Part shown: in pieces, positions 6,227 through 47,828 of the stretch
Layout: every line of letters starts with the position of its first letter
Numbering within the stretch: position 1 is the stretch's first letter
DNA from: Synechococcus sp. CBW1002
GTDB lineage: Bacteria; Cyanobacteriota; Cyanobacteriia; PCC-6307; Cyanobiaceae
Assembly (NCBI RefSeq): GCF_015840915.1
Contig: NZ_CP060398.1
Span: forward strand, 2,852,001 to 2,916,000
Length of the DNA stretch: 64,000 nucleotides
Direction of reading: 5' to 3'
The notes under the pieces: model-generated
What the model saw: only the letters and a program-made list of their open reading frames with translations
The model's database searches: none
What the model was told of the DNA's origin: nothing
Program-made: the position numbers and the translations under genes

Positions 6227-6870
6227 TGCTGCTGCCCCTGAAACCGGGTGAACTATCGCGGCTGATTCCGGCGGTGGCCACCGGTCCCCAGTTCGCGGCC
6301 TCCAGCGGCAATCCGCGCAAAGTGCTGCAGCGGCTGCTGATCTCGCTGATCGGCGGGGTGATCTCCCTGCTGGTGGCCCAGAGCCTGTTCTCCAGCCGTT
6401 TCGGGCCGGTGTGGCTGGTGGTGGGCTTTGTGTTCCTGCTTTACATGCTCTGGGGTCCGATCCTCGAGGCGGGGCGCCGCAACGCCACCCTGCGCCGTTA
6501 TCCGGTGGCGGCCCTGTTCGAGGGTGAGGTGGGCGATCTCTACACCCGTGAGGTGGTGGAGGAGCGGCGCGAGCAGGCGGGCAAGCAGGGGCGGCTGGAA
6601 CTGGTGGAGAACAAGCGCACCTGGCTCTGCCTCGAGCTCGAAGATGAGGAGGGCTACCTGGGCCAGGTGCGCTTTCCGATGGAGAAGAAGCACCAGGCGA
6701 TCCGGCGGGGCATGGTGGTGCGCGCCCTGGTGCTGAGTGAACGCAAGGATTTCGCCCGCATCGGCGCGATCAGCGATGCCTGGCTGCCGCAGCCGAAGCT
6801 GTGGGTGGGCGAGTACCCCTACCTGCTGCGGCCGGCGTTTGAGGAGCTCTGCCTGCGGCGGCTGCGCTGA
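6226..6870 (+). CDS. Conserved cyanobacterial membrane protein of unknown function
   Basis: A 214-residue protein that starts on the last base of the dapB stop codon. It has two closely spaced hydrophobic segments (about residues 35-50 and 60-75), then a soluble C-terminal domain with charged and beta-rich stretches (about 90-205). I recognise it only as a protein seen in picocyanobacterial genomes. No catalytic motif is evident. The tight junction with dapB implies one operon but does not show a shared function. Confidence 0.75.
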   Translation: MLLPLKPGELSRLIPAVATGPQFAASSGNPRKVLQRLLISLIGGVISLLVAQSLFSSRFGPVWLVVGFVFLLYMLWGPILEAGRRNATLRRYPVAALFEGEVGDLYTREVVEERREQAGKQGRLELVENKRTWLCLELEDEEGYLGQVRFPMEKKHQAIRRGMVVRALVLSERKDFARIGAISDAWLPQPKLWVGEYPYLLRPAFEELCLRRLR

Positions 6871-6912
6871 GGCGGGCCTGGCCTGAGCCAGCTGCCCATC
6901 AAGGCGGGTTTG

Positions 6913-6961
6913 CTGACAGAAACGAAACATTGCGTTACAGTCTTCGTAACACCCCGTAACG
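6913..6961 (+). promoter_or_regulatory. hli promoter with HLR1-like direct repeats
   Basis: A plausible sigma70-type promoter is CTGACA at 6913-6918 and TACAGT at 6936-6941 with a 17-base spacer. Three hexamers on the same strand overlap it: GTTACA 6934-6939, GTAACA 6946-6951 and GTAACG 6956-6961. This resembles the HLR1 site (two GTTACA-like direct repeats) bound by RpaB at cyanobacterial high-light genes. The spacing and the T-to-A changes make it a candidate, not a match. Confidence 0.5.
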
Positions 6962-6969
6962 AGGTCTCC

Positions 6970-7236
6970 ATGGCTCAAGCCACCGCTACCACCCCCGCCG
7001 CTGCCGCCGCCGTCATCCGCGGCGCCACCGTGACCACCGAAGACGGTGGTCGCCTCAATGCCTTCGCCAGCGAGCCCCGCATGGAAGTGGTGAGCGCCGA
7101 GAGCGGCTGGGGCTTCCATGAGCGCGCCGAGAAGCTGAACGGCCGCATGGCCATGCTCGGCTTCATCGCCCTGATCGCCACGGAAATCGCCCTCGGCGGC
7201 GAAGCCTTCACCCGCGGTCTGCTCGGCATCGGCTGA
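6970..7236 (+). CDS. High-light-inducible protein (one-helix chlorophyll-binding protein)
   Basis: An 88-residue Hli/Scp protein. The generic LHC motif, with the NGRxAM core and its chlorophyll-binding Asn/Glu, lies at about residues 52-66 ([12 protein letters not shown]) inside the single transmembrane helix. Such proteins bind chlorophyll and carotenoid in thylakoids and protect new or damaged photosystem II. Start ATG 6970 is chosen because GAGGT sits 4-8 bases upstream; an upstream in-frame ATG at 6910 would overlap the promoter repeats. The N-terminal extension of about 35 residues is Ala/Thr-rich. A strong terminator follows. Confidence 0.95.
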
Positions 7237-7262
7237 GCCAGCCGCTCGCTTTAATCTCCCCA

Positions 7263-7290
7263 CCGCAGCGGAAAACCGCTGCGGTTTTTT
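7263..7290 (+). terminator. Strong rho-independent terminator after hli
   Basis: A perfect 9-bp stem (CCGCAGCGG at 7263-7271, CCGCTGCGG at 7276-7284) with an AAAA loop is followed by six T residues. It is among the clearest terminators in the window and makes hli a single-gene transcript. Confidence 0.95.
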
Positions 7291-7309
7291 GTTGTTGCCA
7301 CCCGATCGG

Positions 7310-8491
7310 ATGACCCTGCCGCTGCAGGCGCGGGTTCACGGAGCCGGCCCCACCGGCGCCCTGGCGGCCCTTGCCCTGGCTGATGCCGGCTGGGCTGTTC
7401 GCCTCGTGGATCCCCTCGATGCCGAGCGGCTGCAGCAACGCAGCCGCGCCTATGCCTTCACCCACTCCAGCCGGCGCCTGCTGCAGCGGCTGGGGCTGTG
7501 GCAGGCGCTCGAGCCGCTGTTGACTCCCTTCCGGGACCTGCAGCTGCGTGATCTGGCGCTCGATCCAGGCGGTGACTTTGGCGTTGGGTTCGTGGCCGCG
7601 GATCTCGCTCCGGTGGATCCAGTGCCGGCAGGAGGCGCTGCCGCCGTGGGCTGGATCGCAGAGCATGGCCCCCTCCTGGCGGTGCTGCTGGAGCGATTGC
7701 AGGCCCATCCCGCCGTGACCCTGCAGCTCGGGCAGGGCAGCCGCCCGGACGATGCCGCGGTTGGCGCCTGCGATCTGCTGGTGGCTGCCGATGGGCCGGC
7801 CTCGCCCCTGCGCACCGCCCGCGGCATCGGTGTCTGGCGGCGTGTCTACCGGCAGGCCTGCCTCACCGCCCAGGTGCAGCTGCGTGGCAGCGCCCCCGAC
7901 CAGGCCTGGGAGCTGTTCCGCCCCGAAGGTCCCTTCGCGTTGCTGCCCCTCGGCGGCCAGCAGGTGCAGGTGGTCTGGAGCGCGCCGGTGGCCCGCTGCC
8001 GCCAGTTGGAGCAGCTCGGTGGCCCGGCCTTTCTCGATGCCCTGGCCGGCACCCTGCCGGATCGCTTCCAGCCCGACGCTCTGCTTGACACCCCGCGGGC
8101 CTTCCCGGTGGAGCGGCTGCTGGCCCATCGCCTGCACAGCGGTTCGCTGGTGCTGGTGGGGGAGAGCGCCCACCGCTGCCATCCGGTGGGCGGCCAGGGC
8201 CTCAACCTCTGCTGGCGCGACGTGGCGGTGCTGCACCGGCTGGCCCTTCGCGTCGCCTCGGGCCGGCTGCGGCCCCGCCGGCTGCCCGCCGCCTACGCAC
8301 GCCGCCGCTGGCCCGATCTGCTTGCCACCCTGCTCGTGACCGATCTGCTGGTGCGGCTCTATTCCACCCGCCTGCCCCTGCTGCTGCCGCCGCGCCGCCT
8401 GGCCGTGCTGCTGCTGCAGAGGTTCGCGCCGCTGCGGCGGCTGGTGCTGTCGCAGATGACCAACGGGACTTGCCTTCCCAGCCGCACCTGA
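7310..8491 (+). CDS. UbiH-like FAD-dependent hydroxylase
   Basis: A 393-residue class A flavoprotein monooxygenase. An N-terminal Rossmann motif (GAGPTGALAALALADAG) binds FAD, and a second FAD motif near residue 285 reads LVLVGESAHRCHPVGGQG, where most family members have GDAAH (here GESAH). The fold is typical of aromatic-ring hydroxylases in quinone synthesis (UbiH/UbiF/VisC type), so a role in prenylquinone metabolism is plausible; the substrate is unknown. ATG 7310 is preferred because the alternative TTG at 7289 lies within the upstream terminator T-tract. Confidence 0.85.
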   Translation: MTLPLQARVHGAGPTGALAALALADAGWAVRLVDPLDAERLQQRSRAYAFTHSSRRLLQRLGLWQALEPLLTPFRDLQLRDLALDPGGDFGVGFVAADLAPVDPVPAGGAAAVGWIAEHGPLLAVLLERLQAHPAVTLQLGQGSRPDDAAVGACDLLVAADGPASPLRTARGIGVWRRVYRQACLTAQVQLRGSAPDQAWELFRPEGPFALLPLGGQQVQVVWSAPVARCRQLEQLGGPAFLDALAGTLPDRFQPDALLDTPRAFPVERLLAHRLHSGSLVLVGESAHRCHPVGGQGLNLCWRDVAVLHRLALRVASGRLRPRRLPAAYARRRWPDLLATLLVTDLLVRLYSTRLPLLLPPRRLAVLLLQRFAPLRRLVLSQMTNGTCLPSRT

Positions 8492-8503
8492 CACCATGAC
8501 GCC

Positions 8504-8716
8504 ATGGTGATCAGCACCACGCCCCAACCCACCCCGCCCTCGGCCCTGGTGCAGTATCTGCGGCTGCAGCTGGGCCTGAGCGAGAGCGCCCTGGCGCTGG
8601 GATTGCGCCAGGCCCGGCTCGAGCAGGCGCCCTTACCGGTGGTGCTGTGGCGCTTCGGGCTGATCAGCCTCGATCAGTTCGATCAGGTGCTGCGCTGGCA
8701 GAACAGCCACACCTGA
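8504..8716 (+). CDS. DUF2949 family small protein
   Basis: A 70-residue soluble protein with a compact helical region (LGLSESALALGLRQ, then LPVVLWRFGLISLDQFDQVL). The pattern matches the cyanobacteria-specific DUF2949 family, whose function is unknown. It lies 12 bases after the hydroxylase on the same strand and converges on apt with only six bases between the stops. Confidence 0.8.
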   Translation: MVISTTPQPTPPSALVQYLRLQLGLSESALALGLRQARLEQAPLPVVLWRFGLISLDQFDQVLRWQNSHT

Positions 8717-33129: not shown

Positions 33130-35919
33130 GTGCTGCTCTCCGCCGCCCAGCCGATCTGGTCGCTCCCGCAGAGCGAGGTGTGCGACGCCCTGCAGACCAC
33201 CCCGACCGGGCTGAGCAGCGCCGAGGCTCTGCGGCGACTGGAGCGCTTCGGGCCCAACAGTCTGCCGGCCCTGCGTCGCCGCTCCCTCTGGCTGCGGTTC
33301 GTGGATCAGCTGGTGCATTTCATGGCCCTGTTGCTCTGGATCGCCGGCGGCCTGGCCTTTGTTGCAGGGACCCCGGCCCTCGGCTGGGCGATCTGGGCCG
33401 TGGTGCTGATCAACGGGGCGTTCTCCTTCTGGCAGGAATTCCAGGCTGAACGCACCCTGGCTGCCCTGACGCGCGCCCTGCCCCGCCAGGTGCAGGTGTG
33501 GCGCGATGGTCAGCTGCAGACCTGCCAGGCCGATCAGCTCGTTCCAGGCGATCGGGTCGCCCTGGAGGAAGGCGATCAGGTGCCGGCGGATGGGCGCCTG
33601 CTCGAATCGATCCGGCTTTATCTGGATGTGTCGGTTCTGACCGGCGAATCCCTGCCGGTGGCCCGTCAGGCCGAAACGCTGCCGCCGGAGCGCAGTGACC
33701 ATCCGATCCCCACGCGCGAGCGCTCCAATCTGGTGCTGGCCGGCACCACCGTGACCGCCGGCCGTGGCATCGCCGTGGTCTATGCCACCGGCGCCGAGAC
33801 CGAGTTCGGTCAGGTGGCCCACCTCACGGCCAGCACCGAACGCAGCCCCAGCACCCTCGAACGGCAGGTGGCCCGCATCGTGCGGGTGATCACCACGATC
33901 GCGGTCTCGATGGGGCTGCTCGTGTTCGGTCTCAGCCTCGTGTTTGTCGGTATGGGGCCCTTGGAGGGCCTGGTGTTCGCCGTGGGGATCCTGGTGGCGA
34001 ATGTGCCGGAGGGACTGCTCCCCAGCGTCACCCTCGCCCTGGCCCTGAATGTGCGCCGCATGGCCCAGCGCAACGCGTTGGTGCGGCGTCTGTCGGCGAT
34101 CGAAACGCTCGGCTCGGTGAGCGTGATCTGCAGCGACAAGACCGGCACCCTCACCTGCAATCGCATGGCAGTGGAGGACACCTGGCTGCCGAACCCGGAC
34201 CCGCTGCTGCACAACTGGTTGCTGGTCTGGTCGTGCCTGTGTTCCAACGCCCATCTCGAGCTGGCCCCGGCCCGGCATGTGGTGGGCGATCCCACCGAGG
34301 CGGCCCTGCTGGTGGCGGCCGATGCGGCCGGACTGAACCCCGAGCGGTTGCCCCAGCTCCATCCCCGCCGCCAGGAGATTCCGTTTGATTCGCACCGCCG
34401 TCGCATGAGCGTGGTGGTGGAGGCGGGCCCTGGCTGGCAGTCCGGTGGAATGGGCTGGGGCTGGCTGGAGTCCCAGGCTCTGGTCATCACCAAGGGGGCG
34501 CCGCTGGAAGTGCTCGACCATTGCGTGTCGGGTATGGCTGCGGCGGGTCCGATCCCCTTGCTGGAGCCTGAGCGTCGCCGCATCCGCGAGGCCAATGACC
34601 GGCTGGCGAGCCAGGGTTATCGGGTGATCGCCGTGGCGATACGGCTGCTGCCCCACGATGGCGGGTCCGGCACGGATGCCAGTGAGGCTGTGGAGCAGCA
34701 GCAGGTGTTCGTGGGGTTACTGGGGTTGTACGACCCCCCACGGCCGGAGGTTCCCGAGGCGATCCGGCGCTGCCGCGAGGCCGGCATCAAGGTCACCATG
34801 GTGACGGGCGACTACGGCGTGACCGCCCAGGCCATCGCCCAGCAGATCGGCCTGCTCGAGCCCAGCGCCGTCCGTTAGGCGGATCCGGTGCGGGTGATCG
34901 AGGGTGGCGCCCTGGCCCGGATCAGTGATGTGCAGCTGCGCCAGCTGCTCAAACACCGCACCCGTCTGGTGTTTGCCCGAATGGCTCCAGAGCAGAAGCT
35001 ACGGCTGGTGCAGGCCTATCGCGCCCTCGGGGAGGTGGTGGCCGTGACCGGCGACGGTGTCAACGATGCCCCGGCCCTGCGCGCCGCTGATGTGGGCCTG
35101 GCGATGGGATGCAACGGTACCGATGTCGCCCGGGAAGCGGCGGACATCGTGCTGCTGGACGACAACTTCGCCACGATCATCGAGGCGATCCGCTACGGGC
35201 GGGCCGTGGTGAGCAACATCGGCAAATTTCTCACCTACATCCTCGCCTCCAACGTGCCGGAGATCCTGCCGTTTCTGGCGATGGTGGCGCTGCGCATCCC
35301 CGCGGCCCTCACGGTGCTGCAGATCCTGGCGGTGGATCTGGGCACCGATCTGCTGCCGGCCCTGGGTCTGGGGGCGGAGCCACCGGAGGCCGGTGGCATG
35401 CGCCGACCACCGCGGAAGCGGGATACGCCGTTGCTGAGCGGAGCCCTGTTGCTGCGGGCCTACCTGTTCCTCGGCTTGATCGAGGCCGTGCTGGCCATGG
35501 GGGGCTATCTGCTGGTGTGGCAGGGGGCGGGCTTTGATCTGGCGGCGCTGCGGCAGCTGGCGCCGGCCCTGTTGCATCGCAGTGCTCCAGCCGAGTTGCT
35601 CTGGTTGCAGCGGCAGGCCTCCGCCGTGGCCTTCTGCCTGATCGTGTTCTCCCAGGTGGGTGTGTTGCTGGCCTGCCGCAGGGAGCGGAGCAGCGGCTGG
35701 TCGCTGCCGGCCTGGCGGGACAATCCCCTGCTCTGGATTGGGGTCATGGCTGAGCTGGCCCTCACCGCCGCCTTGATCCTGACGCCGGCCCTGGCGGAGT
35801 TGTTCGCCATGGCCCCCTTCCCTGCCGCCTGGCTGCCCTGGATGCTGGTGGCTCCGGTGACCATCCTGCTGGCGGATGATCTGCGCAAGGGTCTGCTGCC
35901 GCTGCAGCGTGCCGGTTGA
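33130..35919 (+). pseudogene. P2-type cation ATPase interrupted by an in-frame TAG
   Basis: The joined frame encodes 929 residues of a P-type ATPase: actuator TGES (about 178), NVPEGLLP in helix 4 (about 295), phosphorylation site ICSDKTGTLT (about 333), then after the break MAPEQKL and TGDGVNDAP (about 640), and C-terminal helices. TAG at 34876-34878 splits it in the phosphorylation domain without a frame change. GTG at 34888, ten bases on, could restart translation with AGGCGGA four bases upstream. The NVPEGLL wording resembles Na+/K+- and Ca2+-type pumps. It is either a nonsense-mutated pseudogene, a split enzyme or a sequencing error. Confidence 0.85.
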
Positions 35920-37430: not shown

Positions 37431-38108
37431 TCAGTCGGGCAGCAGGGTGCCGCTGAGGACGGCCTTGTCGAGCCGGGCGCTGGCCAGGGATGTGTCGCGC
37501 AGGTCGCAGCCGCTCAGATCGGCTTCACTCAGATCGGCGCCCGAGAGGTTGGCGCCGTAGAGGCAGGCGCCGCGCAGGTCGGCGCCGTGCAGCTGGGAGC
37601 CCTGCAGCTGGGCATAGCTGAGATCGGCACCCCGCAGATCGGCCCGGCCCAGATCAGTGAGCTGGTCGAGGCCGCTGCGGAAATCGGCCTCCACCAGGCG
37701 GGTGTCGCGCCAGTGGCTGCCGGCTGCCACCACCCCCCGCAGGCAGCAGCGGTGCATCAGGGCCCCGGAGAAGTCGGCGTTCTGGAGCCGGGCGCCGGAG
37801 AGATCGGCGTCGTGCCAGAAGGAACCCGCGGCCTGCAGCCCGGAGAGATCCGCTCCCCGGAGCAGGGCCCCCTGGAAACGGCAACCGGTCACCTGGGCCC
37901 GTTGCCAGCGGCTGCGGCCGAAGCGGGCTTCCTGGAAGGTGCCTCCGCTGAGGTCACAGTCGCTCAGGTCGAGATCGACACCATCGAGATCACGGAGCTG
38001 CAGGCCCGGGAACTGCCGATCTCCAGCGGCGAGGGCCTGGCGCAGGCTTTCAAGATCGGTGGGCAGACCTGGCGAGACAGGCACGTCTGCAGAGGAGGGA
38101 GACGACAC
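37431..38108 (-). CDS. Pentapeptide repeat protein
   Basis: A 225-residue protein. From about residue 38 to the end it consists of A(D/N)LSG-type pentapeptides (LSGADLSEADLSGCDL), which fold as a right-handed quadrilateral beta-helix. No membrane helix is present. Such proteins are abundant in cyanobacteria, and most have no assigned role. It ends 100 bases before the gor start and lies 18 bases downstream of the ArsR-type gene, so the three may share a transcript. Confidence 0.9.
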   Translation of the reverse strand: MSSPSSADVPVSPGLPTDLESLRQALAAGDRQFPGLQLRDLDGVDLDLSDCDLSGGTFQEARFGRSRWQRAQVTGCRFQGALLRGADLSGLQAAGSFWHDADLSGARLQNADFSGALMHRCCLRGVVAAGSHWRDTRLVEADFRSGLDQLTDLGRADLRGADLSYAQLQGSQLHGADLRGACLYGANLSGADLSEADLSGCDLRDTSLASARLDKAVLSGTLLPD

Positions 38109-38125: not shown

Positions 38126-38494
38126 TCAGAGGATCGCCGCCAGGGCGTCGAGCTGCTGGCGCTTCGCCGAGAGCATCAACTTTTCGGCGCGGGCCAGCAA
38201 CTTGAACACGCTTTTATCGATCACCTCGTAGAACACCAGGCTTCCCTCCGGCCGTCGCCGCACCACACCGGCGATGGTGAGCAGCTTGAGGTGTTTCGAT
38301 ACCAGGGCCTGGCTGTGGCCTGTCTTCTCCACCACGGCCGTCACATTGAGCGGTCCGGTGCGCAGGGCGTCGAGCACGGCGAGCCGGTTGGGTTCGGAGA
38401 AGACCTTGAAGTATTCGGCGAGGGCGTCCATCGCGGAGAAGGCCGCAGCAGGCGGCGATGGCTGAAGTCCAAGCCTAGCGCGGATCTCCATCAT
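38126..38494 (-). CDS. ArsR/SmtB-family transcriptional regulator
   Basis: A 122-residue winged-helix repressor-like protein. The recognition region is VTAVVEKTGHSQALVSKHLKLL, followed by a wing (VRRRPEGSLVFYEVI). There is no obvious CxC metal-sensing motif, so this is not a classical arsenic or zinc sensor. ATG 38431 (MDALAEYFKVF) could be the true start. It lies divergently from the decayed cyclase gene, with operator-like repeats between them. Confidence 0.9.
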   Translation of the reverse strand: MMEIRARLGLQPSPPAAAFSAMDALAEYFKVFSEPNRLAVLDALRTGPLNVTAVVEKTGHSQALVSKHLKLLTIAGVVRRRPEGSLVFYEVIDKSVFKLLARAEKLMLSAKRQQLDALAAIL

Positions 38495-38513
38495 CTGCTC
38501 AACGCGCTCTGCT

Positions 38514-38562
38514 GTTTCAAGGAAACTGGCAAGACGTTGTATTGCGATGACGTTGTTTCAAG
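38514..38562. promoter_or_regulatory. Repeats between arsR-type gene and cyclase remnant
   Basis: Three overlapping patterns lie in 49 bases: a perfect inverted repeat GTTTC-AAG-GAAAC (38514-38526), GTTTCAAG directly repeated at 38514 and 38555, and GACGTTGT directly repeated at 38533 and 38549. The density and position just upstream of the divergent regulator start suggest operator DNA for the ArsR-type protein. Confidence 0.45.
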
Positions 38563-38632
38563 TTGTCCTGTCCCAGCCCGGCACAGCCCGGCCGTTCCGG
38601 TCGCGCCCTCGCCCCGGCTTCGAGTCCATTCC

Positions 38633-39138
38633 ATGCTCGGCGCGATGGAGGCCGATGACAACCGCGAGCACGTTGATCGCAAGGCGCCGTTGAACCGGCT
38701 GGGTCATCGTTCAGCAGCGGAGACGGAGGCCCAAGAGAGTGATCTGGTGCAGTCGTGCGTATTGGATGTTCCGGCTTTCTGCTGTTCAAGGAGCTCTCCC
38801 GCCGATTGCAGAAGGCTGGCCGTCCGGAGCTCAGCCGCCTGTTCAACCTGATGGCCCGCGATGAGGCGCGCCATGCCGGCTTTCTCAACCGTGCCCTGAT
38901 GGCCGAAGGCATCGAGATCGATCTGCCCAGCCTCGGCACCAAGCGACCGATCACCTGGTTTCCGCTCAGCTGGGTGCTGGATTCGTTCTGCCTCACGGAA
39001 TACATCGGCACCTGGCGTTCCATCCTCATCGACCGCCCTCTCAAGGCCCATCCTGACCATGCCTTCGCGCCGTTGTTCGATTGTTTCGAGCCCTGGTGTC
39101 AGGACGCGAATCGGCATGGAGACTTTTCAACCCGTTGA
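38633..39138 (+). pseudogene. Remnant of Mg-protoporphyrin IX monomethyl ester cyclase (AcsF/ChlA)
   Basis: Pieces of the di-iron cyclase are recognisable in order: MLGAMEADDNREHVDRKAPL (38633 on), LVQSCVL, then after a frame change CSGFLLFKELSRRL, the iron-binding MARDEARHAGF, ITWFPLSWVLDSFCLTEYIG, and CQDANRHGDF. One base is missing near 38768, and a second frame change follows the GDF segment near 39130. The second ligand motif, normally DENRH, reads DANRH. About 100 N- and C-terminal residues each are absent or unreadable. The gene cannot make an active enzyme. Confidence 0.8.
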
Positions 39139-39281
39139 TCCGTTGCTGGCCTGGACTGCGTCAGGGGCTTCAAGGGCGACTGCTTCGTCGATTTCCAAGG
39201 TCCAGCCATCGCAGCCATGGCCGCAGGATGGGCCGCGCCGCCTTAAGTTGACGCCGCTACAGCACCCGTGGCAAAAGGACC

Positions 39282-40583
39282 ATGCTCTGGCAGGCGGTGC
39301 GAGGAACTCTGGGAATTGCATTGCTGCTTTTGGTGGCGTGGTTGTTCTCGCAGGATCGGAGGGCCACGCCCTGGCGGCTGATCGGGGTGGCCCTGGCCAC
39401 CCAGCTGGGGCTTGGGGTGTTGCTGTTTCAGCTGGCGTTCGGCCGGGTGGTGTTTTCCTGGCTGAATGGGGCTGTGGTGGCGCTACTGGCGCCTGCCCGC
39501 ACGGGTGCTGAATTCGTGTTTGGCCCGCTGGCGGTGCCCGCGGGCGAACAGGGCAGCCTGGGCTTGATCCTGGCCTTCCAGGCCTTCCCGATTGCCATTT
39601 TTTTCGCAGCTCTCACGGCTCTGCTCTATCACCTGGGGGTCATGCAGAGGGTGATTGCCACTCTGGCGCGCTTCTTCCGCCGGAGCCTGGGAATCACAGG
39701 CGTGGAGGCAACCGTGACCGCCAGCAATGTGTTTGTGGGGATTGAATCGATGCTCACGATTCGCCCTTATCTGGCCACTGCCCAGCCGCATGAACTGGCG
39801 GTGGTACTCACCGCCGGCATGGCCACCATCGCCAGCACCATGCTGGGGCTGTATGTGGGTGTGCTCCAGCCCCACTTTCCGGGCATTGCCGGCCATCTGA
39901 TCACGGCCAACCTGCTGAGTGCTCCGGCGGCAGTGATGATGGCGCGCCTCCTGGTGCCGGCACCGCTGGTGCGGCTGCCTGTACCAGCCAGCGAATCACG
40001 GCCGCTGCTGCCCGAGCCGGTGCAAGAGGTGCGCTATGGGAGCAGCGTGGAGGCCATCACCCAGGGCGCCAACGATGGACTGAAGCTGGCCGTGGGCATC
40101 ACGGCCGTGCTGATTGCCTTCGTTGGACTGCTCGCCTTGACCAATTCAGGCATCGGCTGGGTGGGCGGCTGGTTCGGCCAGCCGCAGGCCACGCTGCAAT
40201 CCCTGCTGGCCTGGGTGTTTGTTCCGTTTGTGTGGATGATCGGAGTGCCCTTCAGCGACGCGGTACCAGCTTCGGAACTGCTGGCGTTGCGGCTGGTGGC
40301 CACGGAGGTGCCTGCGTTCGTCAGCCTGGCCAGCAGCCTGCAGGCGGGCCAATGGAGCGATCCGCGCTCGGTGGTGATCCTCGCCTACGCACTCTGCGGC
40401 TTTGCCCATCTCCCCTCGCTGGGAATCTTTGTGGGGGGGTTGTGTGCGTTGGCGCCCGAGCAGAAGGGAGTGGTGGGAACACTGGCCTGGCGCGTGCTGC
40501 TGGCCTCCACGCTGGCTTGCCTGCTCACCGGTGCAGTGGCAGGATTGCTGGGTGGATTCACGGGATTCTCGTTGACACCATAA
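39282..40583 (+). CDS. CNT-family nucleoside transporter
   Basis: A 433-residue concentrative nucleoside transporter. It has eight or more hydrophobic segments and the family signature VTASNVFVGIESMLTIRPYL near residue 150, plus LALTNSGIGW and PFSDAVPASELL in the C-terminal half. It imports nucleosides driven by an ion gradient. ATG 39282 is the first start after the cyclase remnant. Confidence 0.88.
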   Translation: MLWQAVRGTLGIALLLLVAWLFSQDRRATPWRLIGVALATQLGLGVLLFQLAFGRVVFSWLNGAVVALLAPARTGAEFVFGPLAVPAGEQGSLGLILAFQAFPIAIFFAALTALLYHLGVMQRVIATLARFFRRSLGITGVEATVTASNVFVGIESMLTIRPYLATAQPHELAVVLTAGMATIASTMLGLYVGVLQPHFPGIAGHLITANLLSAPAAVMMARLLVPAPLVRLPVPASESRPLLPEPVQEVRYGSSVEAITQGANDGLKLAVGITAVLIAFVGLLALTNSGIGWVGGWFGQPQATLQSLLAWVFVPFVWMIGVPFSDAVPASELLALRLVATEVPAFVSLASSLQAGQWSDPRSVVILAYALCGFAHLPSLGIFVGGLCALAPEQKGVVGTLAWRVLLASTLACLLTGAVAGLLGGFTGFSLTP

Positions 40584-40666
40584 GCGTTGTTGGTGCTGAT
40601 GCCAGAGCTGCGGGCACCAGATGTGCTGGCCCGAAGCATGACGACGCGCCGAAAACTTTTGGTTGA

Positions 40667-40691
40667 GGGGCTCCCGCCATCGGGGAGCCCC
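40667..40691. terminator. Hairpin between convergent CNT and linker genes
   Basis: A 9-bp perfect stem (GGGGCTCCC at 40667-40675, GGGAGCCCC at 40683-40691) with a 7-base loop lies between the two convergent stops. On the minus strand it is followed within ten bases by AAAAGTTTT. It probably terminates one or both transcripts. Confidence 0.6.
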
Positions 40692-40730
40692 CACTGCTCA
40701 GGTGTTGTTGGCGACCCTGGGCAGCAGCTC

Positions 40731-41669
40731 TCAGCTCACCGCTACATCCACAACCCGGCCGCCGAGGCGATTGACCCGACGCAGGGCTTCATTCATGCGG
40801 CTGAAGGGAATCCGCAGCACGTAGGCACCACTGCGGACGTAGGAATTGTCGGCGATGCCGGTGGCGGTGATCGTCACCACGCGGCCAGAGGCGTCGCTGC
40901 TGCGGCTGCCGGCATCCACCCGCAGGGCTTCGCGGCGATGGCTCTGGGTGGGGGTGCTGCGGAACTCACCGGACTCGAACGACTCGCCCAGATCGTGGGT
41001 CGTGCTCACCAGGGCCTGGAACGGTCCTTCGGTGGAGACAATCACCACTCGGGGTGCCGAACCCTGGACGGGCAGAGCCCGATCCTGATGGAGGGCTTTC
41101 CCAAGCCGGAACTGGTTGCCGGAGGCATCGCCCTTGGCTGAGGCGGCGGCGCCACGGGCCAGTTGCATCAGCCAGGAGAACTGGCGGCCCTCATGGCCCT
41201 TGGAGTAATCCCAGCCGTGCAGATAGGGAACGGTATCCTGACCAAAACGCTCCTGATATTCGACGCTATCGATGTAGGAATCAATCTCTGCATCATAACC
41301 CTGCTCCTGCAGGATTGTGAAGTGATGCAGCATCTCCGCCTTGTTCTGGGGAGCCCGGCCGAGCAGATGCTTGTGGTTGAGCTCAATGAAACGGTAGGGA
41401 TTGCTGTTCTCGAAGAAGCGGCTGCGGTAGAGGCCGCTCTTGGCGACGGCCCGCACCAGCTCGCGGACGTTGAGGTAATCGTTGCGGAACAGGGATTCCA
41501 CGGCGCTCAGCCGTTCGCTGGCCATCACGTATTGATAGCCGAGAACCTGCCGATAGACCGCCCGGATGATGGTGCTTTTGTCGTCGGAAGAAGCATGCGA
41601 CCAGCTTTCCTTGTCGCGATCATTGGCGAAGCGATCAATGCCCAGCTGGGGCGCTCTGACCAGGGTCAT
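40731..41669 (-). CDS. cpcC: Phycobilisome rod linker polypeptide
   Basis: A 312-residue rod linker. An N-terminal PBS linker domain (about 18-150; VYRQVLGYQYVMASERLSAV, FRNDYLNVRELVRAVA) is followed by a spacer and a C-terminal CpcD-type domain (about 255-312; ITATGIADNSYVR, RMNEALRRVNRLGGRV). This is the architecture of phycocyanin-associated linkers (CpcC). ATG 41669 gives the usual MTLVRAPQLG start. No phycobiliprotein subunit genes are nearby. Confidence 0.92.
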   Translation of the reverse strand: MTLVRAPQLGIDRFANDRDKESWSHASSDDKSTIIRAVYRQVLGYQYVMASERLSAVESLFRNDYLNVRELVRAVAKSGLYRSRFFENSNPYRFIELNHKHLLGRAPQNKAEMLHHFTILQEQGYDAEIDSYIDSVEYQERFGQDTVPYLHGWDYSKGHEGRQFSWLMQLARGAAASAKGDASGNQFRLGKALHQDRALPVQGSAPRVVIVSTEGPFQALVSTTHDLGESFESGEFRSTPTQSHRREALRVDAGSRSSDASGRVVTITATGIADNSYVRSGAYVLRIPFSRMNEALRRVNRLGGRVVDVAVS

Positions 41670-41971
41670 GCGAAGAATGGCAAAAGGGCTAGGGGAGGGC
41701 ACATGGCAACAGTCATGGCCGGCGCGATGCTAGGTGTAACTGTCCGAGGAAATCATGCAACGGCGTCGCTGTATGCAAACTCTACGAATCTACTGCTTGA
41801 ATGATGCGTTTGCTCACGAAATATGTAGTCATGTTATGAGCATCTCGTCCGGTCGACCTCCCTATCCATCCGCTCCGGCTCGAACCCCCTGAGCTCTTGA
41901 TCTCTCGAGCTCCTGGGCCTCCGTTCCTGGCTCCTCGTCCCTGAAGCTGAAGCTTCGCCCGGGCTTCGGCG
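41670..41971. other. Intergenic region upstream of the linker gene
   Basis: A 302-base stretch between the linker start and the desaturase stop. It is noticeably more A/T-rich than the surroundings (around 41750-41850) and presumably holds the linker promoter. I see no ORF, tRNA or hairpin in it. Confidence 0.35.
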
Positions 41972-42769
41972 TCAGGCCCGCATGCGGCTGGCCTGATGGC
42001 TGTCCAGTCGGATCAGGTCAGCTGTGCTGCCACCGCTTTGGCGGCGACGAGCCCGCAGGGCCTGGTCGGAGGGGAGGCGCAGCTGGCTGGCCAGGCCCAG
42101 CTGCTTCAGCAGCAGGATGAAGCGATAGGTGGGATCGGGCAGGACAACCGGTTCGCCCTGGCGCAGGCCCAGGCCCTGGCGGGCTGAGGAGGGGAAGGCG
42201 TGGTGCAGGTTGTGCCAACCCTCACCCAGGGTGATCAGGGCGACCCAGCGGCTGTTGCGGCTGGCATCGCCGCTCTCGAAGGGCTGCTCTCCCCAGAGGT
42301 GGGCCGCGGAGTTCACCGTCGCCACGCCGTGGAACAGGACCGTGGTGCTGAGGCAGAAGGCCGCCAGCCAGGGCAGGCCGCCCAGGGCGTAGGAGAGGCC
42401 CGCCAGGGCCAGCACCGGCAGCATGTGCAAGCGGTCGATCGCCCGCAGCACCGGATCGGCTTCCACATCCGCAGGCAGCTGTTCGGGGAAGAAGCTGCTG
42501 CCCAGCAGCCAGCCCGCCTGGGAACGCCAGAGGCCATGCCACCAGCCCGTCGCCGGCTGCAGGGGGCTGTGGGGGTCGCGGGGGGTGTCCACATGGCGAT
42601 GGTGCTGCTGGTGATGGGCCTTCCACCAGCTCGGTCCCATCTGTCCGGCGGAGGCCGCCACCAGGGAGCCAAGCCACCAGATCGGCCGCGGTGCCCGGTA
42701 GCTGCCGTGGGTGATCAACCGGTGGTAGATCGCCGTGGTGGCCAGCATCCGCGCCAGATACAGCCCCAC
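41972..42769 (-). CDS. Delta-9-type fatty acid desaturase
   Basis: An integral-membrane di-iron desaturase with all three histidine boxes: YHRLITH, KAHHQQHH and WHNLHH. The listed start is GTG 42769. The open frame continues upstream to a stop at 42893 and encodes a convincing first part (LAYGCGPVLIILSHLG and a further hydrophobic helix) typical of the family. No ATG, GTG or TTG occurs there, only CTG (for example 42889). The real start is probably CTG, or a start codon was lost by mutation or error. Confidence 0.85.
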   Translation of the reverse strand: MGLYLARMLATTAIYHRLITHGSYRAPRPIWWLGSLVAASAGQMGPSWWKAHHQQHHRHVDTPRDPHSPLQPATGWWHGLWRSQAGWLLGSSFFPEQLPADVEADPVLRAIDRLHMLPVLALAGLSYALGGLPWLAAFCLSTTVLFHGVATVNSAAHLWGEQPFESGDASRNSRWVALITLGEGWHNLHHAFPSSARQGLGLRQGEPVVLPDPTYRFILLLKQLGLASQLRLPSDQALRARRRQSGGSTADLIRLDSHQASRMRA

Positions 42770-42944
42770 GGCCCACAGCGCTGCTCCCAGCTCCAGGCCC
42801 GTGCTCAGCAGCAGCAGGCAGCCCAGATGGCTGAGGATGATCAGAACGGGGCCACATCCGTAGGCCAGCCGGCGGCGAAGAGGGATCAGAAATCAGCTCA
42901 CAGCAGGACTGATCCTAGGCAGCCGACATGGCTCGACTGAACGG

Positions 42945-43883
42945 TCAGCCTTCCTCCGCCCGTTCTTCCCCGGGGTCTGGCATTGGGCAGGCGCGCGTCT
43001 GGTGGAAGCGGGAGAAGTCGATCACCGCCCGGGCACCGTCGGTTTCCACCATGTCCACGAAGCAGCGCCCGAAGGCGATGCAGTCGACCGGATAGCTGGC
43101 GTGGGCGTGGATCGGACGCTCCAGGATTCCGTCGGTGCCGCTGAAGGACACCACCACCTCGGCATGGTCCACCGCCAGCTGGTCGGGACCCAGTCCCCAC
43201 AGGGGGCTGTCGCGGTTGATCGGATGCATCGCCGTCCAGGCCAGGGTGAAGGCGATGCCGTCTTCCCGGCTGAGGCGCAGGGGATGCAGTCGCCGCATCC
43301 GGTGGCCTTCGCTGCTGCGCTCGTCGATGCTGAGGTAGGCCTTCAGATTCGCTCCCAGGATGGTGTTGCGTCGCTCATTGGCCACCCGGAAGGTGAGGGT
43401 GGGAACGCCGTTGTAGGGATGCACCGCCGCCAGGCTGGAGAAACGGATCCGGGCCGAGCTGCGGGAAAAGCGGGCAAAGGCCAGGCCGGTGGTGAGGGCG
43501 ATGAAGATCAGCCCCGTCAGCGCCTCGGCGGTCACGATCAGGTGGGCGGTGAGGCTGCTGGGGTGGAGCACGCCGTAGCCGATCGAGCCCAGGGTCTGGA
43601 CGCTGAAGAAGAAGGCGTCCGCGAAACTGGCCGCGCCTCCGCCTGAAACCCCGCCGATGCCGGCCGGATCCAGCCGGTACAGCGCGGCGAACAGCAGGTT
43701 GATCAGCAGGTACAGCGTCGTGATCAGCCCCAGGAACAGGGGCCACGACACGGACAGCATCAGCAGGTAGGGCTCTCGCCAGTGGCGGAAGCCGCTCTGT
43801 GCCTCGGTGATCGTGAGCAGGCCCCTCAGGCGTCTGGCCTGTTCCCGTTGTTCGGGTCGGCGCTGCGGCCGCCTCTGGCTCAC
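42945..43883 (-). CDS. Kir-type (inward rectifier) potassium channel
   Basis: A 312-residue KirBac-like channel. Outer helix about 40-65, pore with selectivity filter TLGSIGYG (about 96-103), inner helix about 110-135, and a cytoplasmic immunoglobulin-like C-terminal domain (about 145-300). The filter agrees with the K+ signature TxGYG. Its ATG overlaps the stop of the upstream lipoprotein gene as ATGA. Confidence 0.92.
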   Translation of the reverse strand: MSQRRPQRRPEQREQARRLRGLLTITEAQSGFRHWREPYLLMLSVSWPLFLGLITTLYLLINLLFAALYRLDPAGIGGVSGGGAASFADAFFFSVQTLGSIGYGVLHPSSLTAHLIVTAEALTGLIFIALTTGLAFARFSRSSARIRFSSLAAVHPYNGVPTLTFRVANERRNTILGANLKAYLSIDERSSEGHRMRRLHPLRLSREDGIAFTLAWTAMHPINRDSPLWGLGPDQLAVDHAEVVVSFSGTDGILERPIHAHASYPVDCIAFGRCFVDMVETDGARAVIDFSRFHQTRACPMPDPGEERAEEG

Positions 43884-44131
43884 TCCTCGCCGCCTTCGCC
43901 GCCTTCACCGCCTTCATCTGAACCGTGCATCTCCTGATCCTTGGTCTTGCCCTGCATCGCCCCCTCGCCCATCGCTTCCTTCTGCATCTTCGGTGCGGTC
44001 TGCGGAGCCGGCGTGCTCATGCCGGACGACTCTTCGCCGCCGCTGCCGGAGTCGGGTGCCTTGCCGCAGCCCACGGCTCCGGCCATCAGGCCGGCGGTGG
44101 CAAGAAACAGAGCGATGCTGGGGCGGGCCAT
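43880..44131 (-). CDS. Small acidic lipoprotein
   Basis: An 83-residue protein from ATG 44131. It has a signal peptide with a lipobox-like AVGC (Cys near 22), then a low-complexity Gly/Ser/Met/Glu-rich chain that ends in GGEGGEGGEE. The mature part is probably disordered. Overlap with the Kir-channel start implies a two-gene operon. Function is unknown. Confidence 0.7.
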   Translation of the reverse strand: MARPSIALFLATAGLMAGAVGCGKAPDSGSGGEESSGMSTPAPQTAPKMQKEAMGEGAMQGKTKDQEMHGSDEGGEGGEGGEE

Positions 44132-44315
44132 GGAGGTGGTGCGGCTGGCCACCATTCTTGAGGAGTCCGCGCCCGGCGGTGGCTGCTGGGCGGAGCAGGT
44201 CGTGATCCATCGGTCTCACTGATGTGATCAACCGCCGCAGTGGTGCGGATCAACAGGCACAGCGCGGCGTGATCCAACGGCAAAGCATGGTGGGATCCAC
44301 CGACGGCCTCCGTTC

Positions 44316-44981
44316 ATGCGCTTCATTGTCGAGCCCCTGTTCAGCCCTGAGGCGACCCGTGCCCTGGCTGAGGCGCTGCGGGCCGACGACGCTCCCTGGC
44401 GGCCCGGTGCCGAAACCGCCGGTTGGCATGCCCGCGGGGTGAAACGCAACCGGCAGCTGGAGCGGGGCTCCGACCTGCATCACCAGCTGGAGGCTCAGGT
44501 GCGGGAGGCCCTGCTGGCCGATCCGCTGGTGCGTTCGGCGGCCCTGCCGCTGCATGTCCATGGGGTGCTGTTCAGCCTCACCGGCCCTGGCGAGGGCTAT
44601 GGGCGCCATGTCGACAACGCCTTCATGGCCGGTGGTCGCTCTGACCTGTCCTTCACGGTGGCCCTCACCGATCCAGCGGCCTACGAGGGTGGTGATCTGG
44701 TGCTGGAGTCGCCGGATCGGGAGGAGCGCGTGCGTCTCGGCTCAGGCCAGGCGATCGTGTATCCCAGCACCCTGCTGCATCGGGTCGAGCCGGTCACCGC
44801 CGGTGAGCGCCTGGTGGCGGTGGGCTGGATCCAGAGTCGCATCCGCAGCAGTGAACAGCGGGAACTGCTGTTTGAGCTGGACGCGGCGCGGCGGGCCCTG
44901 TTTCAGCAGCAGGGCAAGGGGGAGATCTTCGATCTGCTCTGCCGCAGCTACACCAACCTGCTGCGGATGTGGGGTGAGTGA
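44316..44981 (+). CDS. PKHD-type Fe(II)/2-oxoglutarate dioxygenase
   Basis: A 221-residue hydroxylase of the YbiX/PiuC type. The iron ligands are His and Asp in YGRHVDNAF (about 104-106) and His in LLHRVEPV (about 157), with the 2-oxoglutarate Arg in GERLVAVGW. PiuC-like enzymes are often iron-regulated; the substrate is unknown. It lies just upstream of the heme oxygenase on the same strand. Confidence 0.9.
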   Translation: MRFIVEPLFSPEATRALAEALRADDAPWRPGAETAGWHARGVKRNRQLERGSDLHHQLEAQVREALLADPLVRSAALPLHVHGVLFSLTGPGEGYGRHVDNAFMAGGRSDLSFTVALTDPAAYEGGDLVLESPDREERVRLGSGQAIVYPSTLLHRVEPVTAGERLVAVGWIQSRIRSSEQRELLFELDAARRALFQQQGKGEIFDLLCRSYTNLLRMWGE

Positions 44982-45002
44982 GGCCGGCGCCCCGGAAGCC
45001 AT

Positions 45003-45040
45003 GTAACAGTCTTTCTGCGTAACAACAGTAGCGTTATACA
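45003..45040 (+). promoter_or_regulatory. Repeat-containing promoter region of heme oxygenase gene
   Basis: GTAACA occurs twice (45003-45008 and 45019-45024, 16-base period), followed by a -10-like TATACA at 45035-45040. The segment ACAGTCTT..CGTAACA is shared with the hli promoter at 6936-6951. A transcription start near 45047 would fit translation from ATG 45079. Confidence 0.4.
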
Positions 45041-45078
45041 GTTTGACTGTTTCTTCGTCGCTTTCGGCGTGTCCGCCC

Positions 45079-45768
45079 ATGACTGCTGCCATCCCCGGGT
45101 CCATCTCGGACCATGCCCGGCCTGCCGATGCCGTGATGCGCAAGGGGTTCGGGCCACGCGTCCGGCGGCTGCATGGCCGCATCGGCGCCGCGCACCACAA
45201 AGCGGAAGGCATGGCCTTCTCCCGCTCGCTGCTGGCCGGAGAAGCCAGTCCGCTGCAGCTGGCCGCCCTGCTGCGGGCCCTGGCACCCGCCTACGCCCTG
45301 ATCGAGCGGCGGGGGCCGGCCCTGGCGGAGGCCCTCGGGGCCACGCTGCCCTGGGCTGATCTGGCTCGCAGCGCCGCCCTCGGCCATGACCTGGCCCAGC
45401 TGGAGGCTGCGGCCGTTCCCGCCACGTCTCCGTCTGCCGCCGCCAGCTCCTGGCTCGAGCAGCTCTCCACCCTCGCTGAGACCGCGCCCCACCGCTTCCT
45501 CGCCCACGTGTACGTGCGCTACGGCGGTGATCTCTCCGGCGGGCAGCAGCTCAGCGAGCAGGCCAATGCCATCCTGCGCCGCCACGGCCTGCCCGCCGTG
45601 GAGTTCTGGCAGTTCGACCGGCCCCTGAGTGAGCTCAAGCAGGGTCTCCACGACGGCTTCGAGCAGCTGCGGCTCAGCGAGTCCCAGGAGCAGGAGCTGC
45701 TGCAGGAAGCGGAGGACGCCTTCCTCGCCACCCAGCGCCTGCTGGCCGAACTGGGCGAGCTGGTCTGA
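45079..45768 (+). CDS. ho: Heme oxygenase (biliverdin-producing)
   Basis: A 229-residue heme oxygenase that opens heme to biliverdin, the precursor of phycobilins. The proximal His is in AAHHKAEG (about 48), and the distal-helix signature YGGDLSGGQ is near residue 155. ATG 45079 is preferred over TTG 45043 because a likely transcription start lies between them. It is followed 71 bases later by hemN on the same strand, the same pairing as ho2-hemN in low-oxygen gene sets. Confidence 0.92.
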   Translation: MTAAIPGSISDHARPADAVMRKGFGPRVRRLHGRIGAAHHKAEGMAFSRSLLAGEASPLQLAALLRALAPAYALIERRGPALAEALGATLPWADLARSAALGHDLAQLEAAAVPATSPSAAASSWLEQLSTLAETAPHRFLAHVYVRYGGDLSGGQQLSEQANAILRRHGLPAVEFWQFDRPLSELKQGLHDGFEQLRLSESQEQELLQEAEDAFLATQRLLAELGELV

Positions 45769-45839
45769 GCGGAGCGCCGCTGTCCAGCCGTTCCCCATCC
45801 GCTCTCGCCGCACCCTTCGCTCCCCTAGCCCCCGATCTG

Positions 45840-47225
45840 ATGACGTTCGCGCCATCCCGTTCCGTTTCTGCCACCAAGCCCTCGGTTTCCACCCCGATCG
45901 CGCTGCTGCTCAAGTACGACAAGCCGGTGCCGCGTTACACCAGCTACCCCACCGCCGCCGCCTTCTCGGAGGCGGTGGGCGCCGCCGATCTGGCGGCCCA
46001 GCTGGCCAGGCCCGCTGCCGAACCCCTGTCGCTGTATGTCCATGTGCCCTTCTGCCGCCATGCCTGCTGGTATTGCGGTTGCAACCGGGTCACCACCCAG
46101 GCCGGCTCCCGGGTGGTGGGCCCCTATCTGCAGGCGCTGGAGCGGGAGCTGCAGCTGATCGGGGCCGCCGCGGGCCAGCGGTGGCGGGTGGGGCAGCTGC
46201 ACTGGGGCGGCGGCACCCCCAACTACCTCACGCCGGCGGAACAGGGGCAGCTGTGGGAGCTGCTGGATCAGCACTTCGATCTCGCCACCGATCTGGAGGC
46301 CTCGATCGAGGTGAATCCCGAGTTCCTCAGCCGTGACGAGCTGCTCGGCCTGCGCCGGCTCGGCTTCAATCGCATCAGCTTCGGCATCCAGGATGCCGAT
46401 CCCGAGGTACAGAAGGCGGTCAATCGGGTGGTGCCCGTCGAGCAGCTCCGTCGGGCGATGGCCTGGATGCGGGAGGCCTCGTTCGAGAGCGTCAACGTGG
46501 ATCTGATCTGCGGCCTGCCGCTGCAGACACCGGAGCGCTTCCGCACCACCCTGGAGCTGGTGCGGGAGCTGCGGCCCGATCGCATCTCCCTGTTCTCCTT
46601 CGCCTATCTGCCGCAGCAACTGCCCCTGCAGCGCAAGATCGCGGCCGAGGATCTGCCCAGCCAGCACCAGCGGCTGGCCATGCTGGAGTCCGCCAGCCAG
46701 CTGCTGGCCGCCGCCGGCTACGACGCCATCGGCATGGATCACTACGCCCTGGCGGGCGACAGCCTGGCGGTCGCGGCCCGCGAGGGCCGGCTGCACCGCA
46801 ACTTCCAGGGCTACACCACCGGTGGTGAGCTCGATCTGCTGGGGGTGGGCCCCACGGCGATCAGCCAGTTCCCCCATCTGTTCAGCCAGAACCTGCGTGA
46901 TCTGCGCGCCTACTACGCCGCGCTCGAGGCCGGTCGCCTGCCGGTGGAACGGGGCCTGGTGGTGCGCGATCCGGCGGTGCTGGAACGGCGCCGGCTGATT
47001 CAGGAGGTGATGTGCCGCTTCCGGGTTGCGCTGCCCCTGGAGGGTTTCGCGCAGGAGTGGCACGACCTTCAGGCCCTGGCCGCGGATGGCCTGGTGCAGC
47101 TGCAGCGCCAGGGCGATCAGGGCCTGGTCGAGGTCACGTCCCAGGGCCGCTGGCTGATCCGCTCGATCGCCGCGGTGTTCGATCCGGAGCAGCGCCGGCG
47201 TGCCAGCGGTTCCCGGCTGGTCTGA
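45840..47225 (+). CDS. hemN: Oxygen-independent coproporphyrinogen III oxidase (radical SAM)
   Basis: A 461-residue HemN. The radical SAM cluster motif CRHACWYCGC is near residue 70, preceded by the HemN-specific N-terminal segment VPRYTSYPTA and followed by GGGTPNYL. The C-terminal HemN domain is complete. It decarboxylates coproporphyrinogen III to protoporphyrinogen IX without O2, in contrast with the aerobic HemF. Confidence 0.94.
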   Translation: MTFAPSRSVSATKPSVSTPIALLLKYDKPVPRYTSYPTAAAFSEAVGAADLAAQLARPAAEPLSLYVHVPFCRHACWYCGCNRVTTQAGSRVVGPYLQALERELQLIGAAAGQRWRVGQLHWGGGTPNYLTPAEQGQLWELLDQHFDLATDLEASIEVNPEFLSRDELLGLRRLGFNRISFGIQDADPEVQKAVNRVVPVEQLRRAMAWMREASFESVNVDLICGLPLQTPERFRTTLELVRELRPDRISLFSFAYLPQQLPLQRKIAAEDLPSQHQRLAMLESASQLLAAAGYDAIGMDHYALAGDSLAVAAREGRLHRNFQGYTTGGELDLLGVGPTAISQFPHLFSQNLRDLRAYYAALEAGRLPVERGLVVRDPAVLERRRLIQEVMCRFRVALPLEGFAQEWHDLQALAADGLVQLQRQGDQGLVEVTSQGRWLIRSIAAVFDPEQRRRASGSRLV

Positions 47226-47276
47226 CACCTGCGCGGCGGCCCGCCGTCAGGATGGCCTGGTCTGGCTGCCGGTGCG

Positions 47277-47828
47277 ATGGCCCCTGCCTCCCCGTCAGCG
47301 CTGCCGGCCCCGGCAGCGCTGCCCTCCCTGGCGGATCTGGAACGCCGTGCCGCAGGCGGCGGCCTGCTTCTGCGCCTGCAGGTGTCCGACCGTCTGGGGA
47401 TCCGGGGCCTGCGGGTGGTGGTGGCCCGGCCCCGGCCGCAGCAGCCTCCCCTGCTGCTGGGGGAGCTCAAGGGCTGGGCGCTCCCCACGGCCGCGGGCCT
47501 GCAGCTCGACACCATGCGGGTGCAGGGACAGGACACCGCCGCGGTGGGCCCCTTGATCTGGGCCGCCACCGGCGCCTGGGCCCTGGAGTGCACGCCCTGC
47601 CGCCAGGCGCGCCTGCTCGCCATCCGCGACGATCCGCGTCAGCACCGCCGCTTGGTGCGCTATTTCGAGCGACTTGGCTTCATGCCGCTGCGCGACCTCG
47701 GCGCCGGTCCGCTCGATCTTGCCCTGCGCCTGGTGTGGGGCGGGACGGGGTTGCTGATGCGCGGCGAGCTGGTGGAGGTGCTGCGGCGCAGCGTGCGGCG
47801 GCTGGAATGGATTGCCCCAGGGCCTTGA
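47277..47828 (+). CDS. Conserved cyanobacterial protein, possibly GNAT-like
   Basis: A 183-residue protein. The C-terminal part (ARLLAIRDDPRQHRRLVRYF, then ERLGFMPLRDLGAG) resembles the acetyl-CoA-binding and following helix of GNAT acetyltransferases, but the motif is loose. A Cys pair (LECTPCRQ) lies just before it. Substrate and function are unknown. It follows hemN by 51 bases and precedes the DUF429 gene by 56 bases. Confidence 0.65.
   Translation: MAPASPSALPAPAALPSLADLERRAAGGGLLLRLQVSDRLGIRGLRVVVARPRPQQPPLLLGELKGWALPTAAGLQLDTMRVQGQDTAAVGPLIWAATGAWALECTPCRQARLLAIRDDPRQHRRLVRYFERLGFMPLRDLGAGPLDLALRLVWGGTGLLMRGELVEVLRRSVRRLEWIAPGP

Follow-up and report, generated by a model that had tools for sequence, protein, structure and literature searches.

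The 64,000-nucleotide stretch examined here (the window; Synechococcus sp. CBW1002, contig NZ_CP060398.1, positions 2,852,001 to 2,916,000, so that window coordinates equal genome coordinates minus 2852000) carries what are probably the remains of a micro-oxic regulon for tetrapyrrole synthesis. The second heme oxygenase gene, ho2, lies next to hemN, which encodes an oxygen-independent coproporphyrinogen III oxidase, and both are intact; 6 kb away is a fragment of a cyclase gene, chlAII, beside a gene for an ArsR-family regulator, which we call arsR1 (Table 1). The genome (G000; 3.85 Mb, one contig, 99.74% complete) was compared with Synechococcus sp. CS-1328 (G001), a relative of the same genus whose heme oxygenase is 96% identical to that of the window and which served as reference. 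A family survey covered 101 genomes, which were searched for HO2 (identity of at least 50%), HemN, intact chlAII (at least 68%) and ArsR1 (at least 63%), and a separate collection comprised 21 named ho2 loci, including that of CS-1328 and several others from genomes that are also in the family survey. Below, genomes are numbered G and loci L.

Table 1. Features of the locus and the distant chlAII fragment (window coordinates unless marked C1, which are genome coordinates)
Feature	Position	Strand	Remarks
P-type cation ATPase	33130-35919		two open frames
Pentapeptide-repeat protein gene	37431-38108	-	PF00805; 17 nt after arsR1
arsR1, ArsR-family winged-helix regulator	38126-38494	-	NF033788, 71 bits (cut-off 55)
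Decayed palindromic site TATTGCGATGACGTTGTT	38540-38557	+	between arsR1 and chlAII remnant; score 16.0
chlAII pseudogene	38611-39197	+	codons ~40-234 of 353, three pieces in shifted frames; from DNA alignment to CS-1328
Stretch without counterpart at the CS-1328 locus	39194-40661	+	carries a CNT/NupC-family gene for a nucleoside transporter at 39282-40583
Acyl desaturase gene	41972-42769	-	PF00487; between remnant and ho2, on the opposite strand
Inward-rectifier (Kir-type) potassium channel gene	42945-43883		PF17655
Palindromic-family site TATAACGCTACTGTTGTT	45021-45038	-	just upstream of ho2; score 14.9
ho2, second heme oxygenase gene, intact	45043-45768	+	PF01126, E 2.3e-24
hemN, intact	45840-47228	+	TIGR00538, 471 bits, over cut-off
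Second chlAII fragment	C1:338449-338952		covers residues 9-176; IS66-type transposase gene nearby, an IS110-type one beyond

Results

The original prediction, made from the letters of the DNA, had described an adjacent and intact ho and hemN, a cyclase remnant near them and an ArsR-family regulator next to the remnant, and all of these were borne out. The remnant matches the cyclase model NF010172 between 38755 and 39135 (E 1.3e-48, profile positions 103-220 of 361), and against the whole CS-1328 protein it falls into three pieces, at 38627-38788 (residues 44-97), 38767-39129 (residues 91-211) and 39117-39197 (residues 208-234). The DNA of 38611-39193 is 89% identical to chlAII of CS-1328 (520 of 585 columns). 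On the 5' side about 243 bp are gone relative to CS-1328, the start codon among them; the 3' third is gone as well, the last 364 bp of chlAII being swapped for 1468 bp (39194-40661), and the alignment picks up again at the base directly after the chlAII stop codon of CS-1328. Of 15 residue differences between the longest piece and CS-1328, 12 are derived here, one is derived in CS-1328 and two are ambiguous. Alanine replaces Glu204, which we take to belong to the diiron region and which is invariant in all 35 other sequences with this column, the housekeeping cyclase included. The ratio of nonsynonymous to synonymous substitution rates (dN/dS) of the longest piece against CS-1328 is 0.33, above all of the other eleven genes compared (0.09 to 0.29), and even this value is diluted, because the comparison includes the branch of the intact CS-1328 gene.

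The remnant is 87-88% identical to chlAII of CS-1328 and 50% identical to the strain's own acsF, the housekeeping cyclase gene, which is intact elsewhere in the genome. In the cyclase tree it groups with chlAII of CS-1328, G121 and G094 (92/87) and not with acsF; this tree holds a single ChlAI sequence on a long branch, which places the deep ChlAI/ChlAII split outside its reach. The remnant is thus closer to ChlAII than to ChlAI, and it has no complete frame with the conserved residues. Since the frame is broken and Glu204 is lost, it is best called a pseudogene and not a ChlAII-type Mg-protoporphyrin ester cyclase by function: judged by its sequence, it is a defunct piece of the gene for this enzyme's second, micro-oxic type. 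The genome has no orthologue of BchE as a substitute cyclase, the best match being 29% identical over residues 175-351 of 539.

A second chlAII fragment lies at 338 kb; searches of the genome turned up no 3' part of it. With chlAII of both G071 and G074 it shares 89% identity, and because it groups with G074 in the tree (88/94), apart from the native copy, it likely arrived laterally. The palindromic site described below is perfectly preserved in it, and nowhere else does this genome match the site with one mismatch or fewer. The fragment is cut off near the IS66-type transposase gene, and a simple 11-mer check found no terminal inverted repeats of that element; we make no claim that an insertion caused the break. 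Taken as they stand, the two fragments indicate that two separate copies of chlAII were lost in this genome. The original prediction, that the lineage once had the full set and lost the cyclase, agrees with the synteny and co-occurrence reported below and needs amendment in that it reckoned with one lost copy.

HO2 of the window is 24% identical to the strain's own HO1, and the start of the relatives' alignments suggests that the true ho2 start may lie 10-20 codons downstream. By own-genome search hemN is the sole copy above the family cut-off. The dN/dS values against CS-1328, 0.11 for ho2 and 0.17 for hemN, indicate that both genes are kept under purifying selection, so the predicted retention of oxygen-independent HemN holds, with the correction that ho2 was kept together with it.

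In CS-1328 a whole chlAII stands at the same place and in the same gene order, with the same ArsR gene next to it, ho2-hemN not far off and no sign of unrelated insertions, and this synteny rules out a chance linkage of the remnant and ho2-hemN. Across the family, HO2 was found in 22 of 101 genomes and HemN in the same 22, of which 21 have an intact chlAII, the sole exception being the genome studied here. ArsR1 occurs in 29 genomes, all 22 HO2-HemN genomes included, and HO2 in none of the 72 genomes without ArsR1 (Fisher p 1.7e-16; our co-occurrence tests take no account of shared ancestry). The three genes are linked: of the 21 family genomes with both chlAII and ho2, 18 have them 0.1-12 kb apart on a single contig (they are far apart in G085 and on different contigs in G019 and G118), a range that includes the 6 kb between the window's remnant and ho2, and hemN follows ho2 in 21 of 21 loci of the separate collection. 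The connection across these 6 kb, offered as inference in the original prediction, now has the support of synteny, of co-occurrence and of a DNA site that the two loci share. Where chlAII is intact, ArsR1 is its divergent neighbour in 17 of the 21 genomes, across gaps of 121-1313 bp that exceed 500 bp in seven of the 17. Judged by eye, the longer gaps, those of G030, G019, G074, G067, G118, G071 and G104, seem to contain a further small gene, which lies behind the site and on the same strand as chlAII. Another case of decay is seen in G104, which has a chlAII fragment beside ArsR1 and neither ho2 nor hemN.

Upstream of chlAII, a palindrome of about TATMACG-NTRN-CGTTATR recurs in 20 of 21 genomes, 17 of which defined it. 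The site matrix was trained on 19 genomes (those 17 plus G029 and G093), and the ArsR1-chlAII gap of all 19, which define it, holds a site close to TATCACGATGTCGTTATG (scores 16.8-29.2). Outside the training set, the gap site of the held-out G104 scores 26.8, and in three of the four genomes where ArsR1 is unlinked, G105 (29.4), G060 (29.7) and G099 (26.9), a site stands upstream of chlAII, the fourth, G077, having none. As a control, 1050 shuffled intergenics gave best scores of which 99% were below 11.0, with a maximum of 15.9. The operator-like DNA that had been predicted beside the remnant is therefore present (16.0 against 15.9 for the best shuffle), but it is decayed. With a hold-out matrix, chlAII-trained without G000, G001 and G104, it scores 13.2 and the site upstream of ho2 scores 11.7, the shuffle control covering the full matrix only. 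Both sites are within the top three of the 64-kb window under the hold-out matrix, and the next distinct site scores 7.5; the third match (8495-8512, minus strand, 14.1 after hold-out) lies just past the 3' end of the frame 7289-8491 and is probably due to chance.

Of 34 regions before ho2, 29 hold a site scoring at least 12 under the full matrix (28 of 33 once one repeat is set aside). Under the hold-out matrix 22 of the 34 do so, compared with 81 of 2000 random fragments, which were drawn from the same loci and may contain true sites. We also scanned the 101 whole genomes with TATMACGNTRNCGTTATR, allowing one mismatch, a search that misses weaker sites, both window sites included. It returned 25 rows, equivalent to 24 sites, in 18 genomes. 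Twenty of the sites are in ArsR1 genomes, where 19 stand before chlAII, a chlAII fragment or ho2 (the exception is G094:C1:923970), and four are in genomes without ArsR1 (G013, G083, G088 and G100). A backwards control pattern matched mainly small, presumably AT-rich genomes.

The window ArsR1 also exceeds the PF01022 cut-off, which places it among winged-helix ArsR domains. Its AlphaFold2 model is a confident winged helix (predicted local distance difference test, pLDDT, 88.5; predicted template modelling score, pTM, 0.72), with Rv0081 and SmtB as the nearest solved folds. The protein has no cysteines, and none is invariant among 25 aligned homologues (those of G060 and G099 have two each), so that it lacks the cysteine metal or thiol sensing site that many, not all, ArsR/SmtB members have. 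arsR1 and the pentapeptide-repeat gene probably form one operon; of the 29 genomes with ArsR1, 25 have the two side by side, whereas in G105, G102, G073 and G066 they were not seen together. In G042 and G049, from other cyanobacterial families, an ArsR1 homologue (46-48% identical) lies near chlAII, which suggests an old ArsR1-chlAII partnership; the palindromic site is absent from both loci (best scores 11.5 and 9.2). In L099, L101, L075 and L088 the downstream neighbour of hemN is another ArsR-like gene, with 34-40% identity to ArsR1.

A chlAII-type cyclase of 61-66% identity, for which we adopt the presumptive label 'marine type', was found in 37 of the 101 family genomes, mostly small, with no other cyclase match except in G003. 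In the tree, seven such sequences fall into a single clade within picocyanobacterial ChlAII (91/93). Genomes with this cyclase type may use a ChlAII descendant as sole cyclase. In L104 (G029) and L105 (G093) the sole cyclase found is of this type, adjoins ArsR1 and carries the site (22.6 and 19.3), and in L049 (G003; 4322-7461) two tandem chlAII-type genes, one per type, have ArsR1 and ho2-hemN as neighbours, an arrangement that may be an intermediate.

As for the remaining neighbours, the window desaturase is only ~34-42% identical to the desaturase beside chlAII in relatives. Many genomes have a desaturase gene next to chlAII (L047, L048, L089 and L093) or next to hemN (L115, L118, L119 and L051), a placement also known for desF in Synechococcus 7002; compared with this desF-like neighbour, the loci of CS-1328 and the window have a different desaturase (about 36%), reversed. 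The two ATPase frames, of 582 and 343 aa with 9 nt between them, jointly hold the N-terminal, catalytic and C-terminal domains and are possibly a frameshifted gene. A promoter and terminator scan of 38400-47400 gave no signal (1 and 4 found, compared with 0.6 and 4.0 in shuffles).

Discussion

The decay of chlAII, the intactness of ho2 and hemN, their linkage and the distribution of the site can be read from the DNA itself, and we consider it likely that the region is what is left of a micro-oxic regulon of chlAII and ho2-hemN, in which ArsR1 binds the palindrome and switches the set. ArsR1 is the best candidate for the switch of this set in picocyanobacteria. Usually transcribed away from chlAII, it would bind TATMACG-NTRN-CGTTATR before chlAII and before ho2-hemN, and binding would switch the two together. 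ArsR1 would probably be a repressor, because the TATAAC/GTTATA strings of the palindrome could, in our reading, overlap a -10 element, and it would release the DNA upon a drop in oxygen or a change in a tetrapyrrole signal.

Several observations weigh against this proposal. Both of the sites in the window itself are weak, and G077, in which ArsR1, chlAII, ho2 and hemN are all present, has no recognisable site. No site was found before ho2 in G035, G094, L076, L078 or G077, nor near the unlinked arsR1 of G077, G060 and G099, that of G105 having only a weak one (13.6); autoregulation is therefore not general. G066, G073, G102 and G109 have ArsR1 without a chlAII-type gene, ho2 or hemN (two of these genomes are only 69-74% complete), so ArsR1 may have another job. 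The long ArsR1-chlAII gaps may hold a small extra gene, and a paralogous ArsR adjoins hemN in some genomes. Finally, HxlR proteins, the relatives of the activator ChlR, go with the set: they gave 20 matches in 14 of the 101 family genomes, and 11 of these 14 are among the 22 with HO2 (p 1.1e-6).

It could be argued that the window reflects plain gene loss, ArsR1 being a mere neighbour whose partner is the pentapeptide-repeat gene, and that some other protein binds the palindrome. In keeping with this idea, the genes for ArsR1 and the pentapeptide protein remain neighbours in genomes with chlAII elsewhere (G077, G060 and G099, the genomes without a site near arsR1), and G109 has both genes without the set. 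We nevertheless think it unlikely, since ArsR1 is present in 22 of 22 set genomes and divergent to chlAII in 17 of 21. Moreover, in the training genomes G029 and G093 ArsR1 stands beside the only cyclase found and the site is there (22.6 and 19.3), whereas among the 37 genomes with the same cyclase type, 16 in which the survey gave no ArsR1 orthologue have a best score upstream of the cyclase of 13.3 (one stretch being only 253 bases). That the ArsR paralogue downstream of hemN binds the palindrome instead appears highly improbable: it adjoins hemN in L075 and L101 (G099), L099 (G060) and L088, but second ArsR matches also occur in genomes without the set, such as G010, G070, G082, G087 and G114, and G120 has the site (24.6) with no second ArsR match listed, in a genome that is 85% complete. 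The weakest explanation, that the remnant is a decayed acsF copy unrelated to ho2-hemN, can point to a common protein family and to acsF being the genome's best match to it, but is as good as refuted by identity (50% to acsF against 87% to chlAII of CS-1328), by the tree and by the whole chlAII in the same place in CS-1328.

How does the proposed regulon switched by ArsR1 compare with known systems? According to the portions available of PMC4500134 and PMC13421787, ChlR (Sll1512) is a MarR/HxlR-type [4Fe-4S] activator; the former describes the chlAII-ho2-hemN genes of Synechocystis as induced at low oxygen, ChlR of Synechococcus 7002 as encoded adjacent and divergent to chlAII, and its cysteine signature as Cys-X4-6-Cys-Pro, and the latter gives the ChlR motif TTMCC-N3/4-GGWAA and the vicinal disulfide of RexT. 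The Synechocystis 6803/Synechococcus 7002 cluster (acsFII-ho2-hemN-desF) has the same three enzyme types, ho2 and hemN adjacent, chlAII and often a desaturase near, and, as we infer, common regulation; in contrast, chlAII is dead in CBW1002, and the linked regulator is of ArsR type with another DNA site. No HxlR relative of ChlR was matched in G000 or G001, and the ChlR cysteine pair was found in none of the ten family HxlR proteins examined of the 20 matches, which sets these apart from the four-cysteine ChlR; ChlR is thus unsupported as regulator in this genome. A four-cysteine HxlR protein does stand beside chlAII in the distant genomes of L119 and L123, and from its cysteines and place we take it to be ChlR. 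Like ChlR, ArsR1 is a small winged-helix protein, adjacent and divergent to chlAII, with very few predicted targets, but it belongs to the ArsR family, has no conserved cysteine and would recognise TATMACG-N4-CGTTATR instead of the ChlR motif. It shares fold and sequence family with SmtB, RexT and Rv0081 and, without an invariant cysteine, has neither a cysteine metal site nor a RexT-type vicinal disulfide.

A distant precedent for ArsR-type proteins linked to hemN transcripts is found in Hyphomicrobium denitrificans, where, in the part available of PMC12423496, deletion of the repressors sHdrR and SoxR lowers hemN transcripts; these proteins, however, are proteobacterial, respond to sulfane sulfur and go with no chlAII or ho2 set, and the effect is possibly indirect. 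Aerobic and anaerobic tetrapyrrole enzymes have been described in picocyanobacteria from Black Sea Synechococcus, with no regulator reported in the accessible part of the paper (PMC6776005). Among the matches listed by our literature search, whose coverage left out most subscription papers, no ArsR protein was tied to the chlAII-ho2-hemN set; PMC5061849, in which both 'ArsR' and 'chlAII' occur, is, as far as its available text goes, on sulfide and arsenic genes, with chlAII only in a reference title.

We lean, with some reserve, towards the view that in picocyanobacteria ArsR1 responds to oxygen or to a tetrapyrrole and so switches the micro-oxic genes for chlorophyll, heme and bilins. It would then have replaced ChlR without being homologous to it, would sense without cysteine and would do the job that the [4Fe-4S] activator does in Synechocystis. 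By analogy with its orthologues, the set presumably serves low oxygen in CBW1002 too. The targets left to ArsR1 in this strain would be ho2-hemN and perhaps its own operon, so that the strain would still raise HO2 and HemN and not a micro-oxic cyclase; for ring-E cyclisation at low oxygen it would depend entirely on the housekeeping enzyme.

For picocyanobacteria, the ArsR1 site thus offers a specific, testable answer to how the set may be regulated. The genome of CBW1002 can moreover be regarded as a natural experiment, in which ho2 and hemN appear to have been kept under selection after the cyclase was lost twice, and which separates the value of low-oxygen heme and bilin synthesis from that of low-oxygen chlorophyll synthesis.

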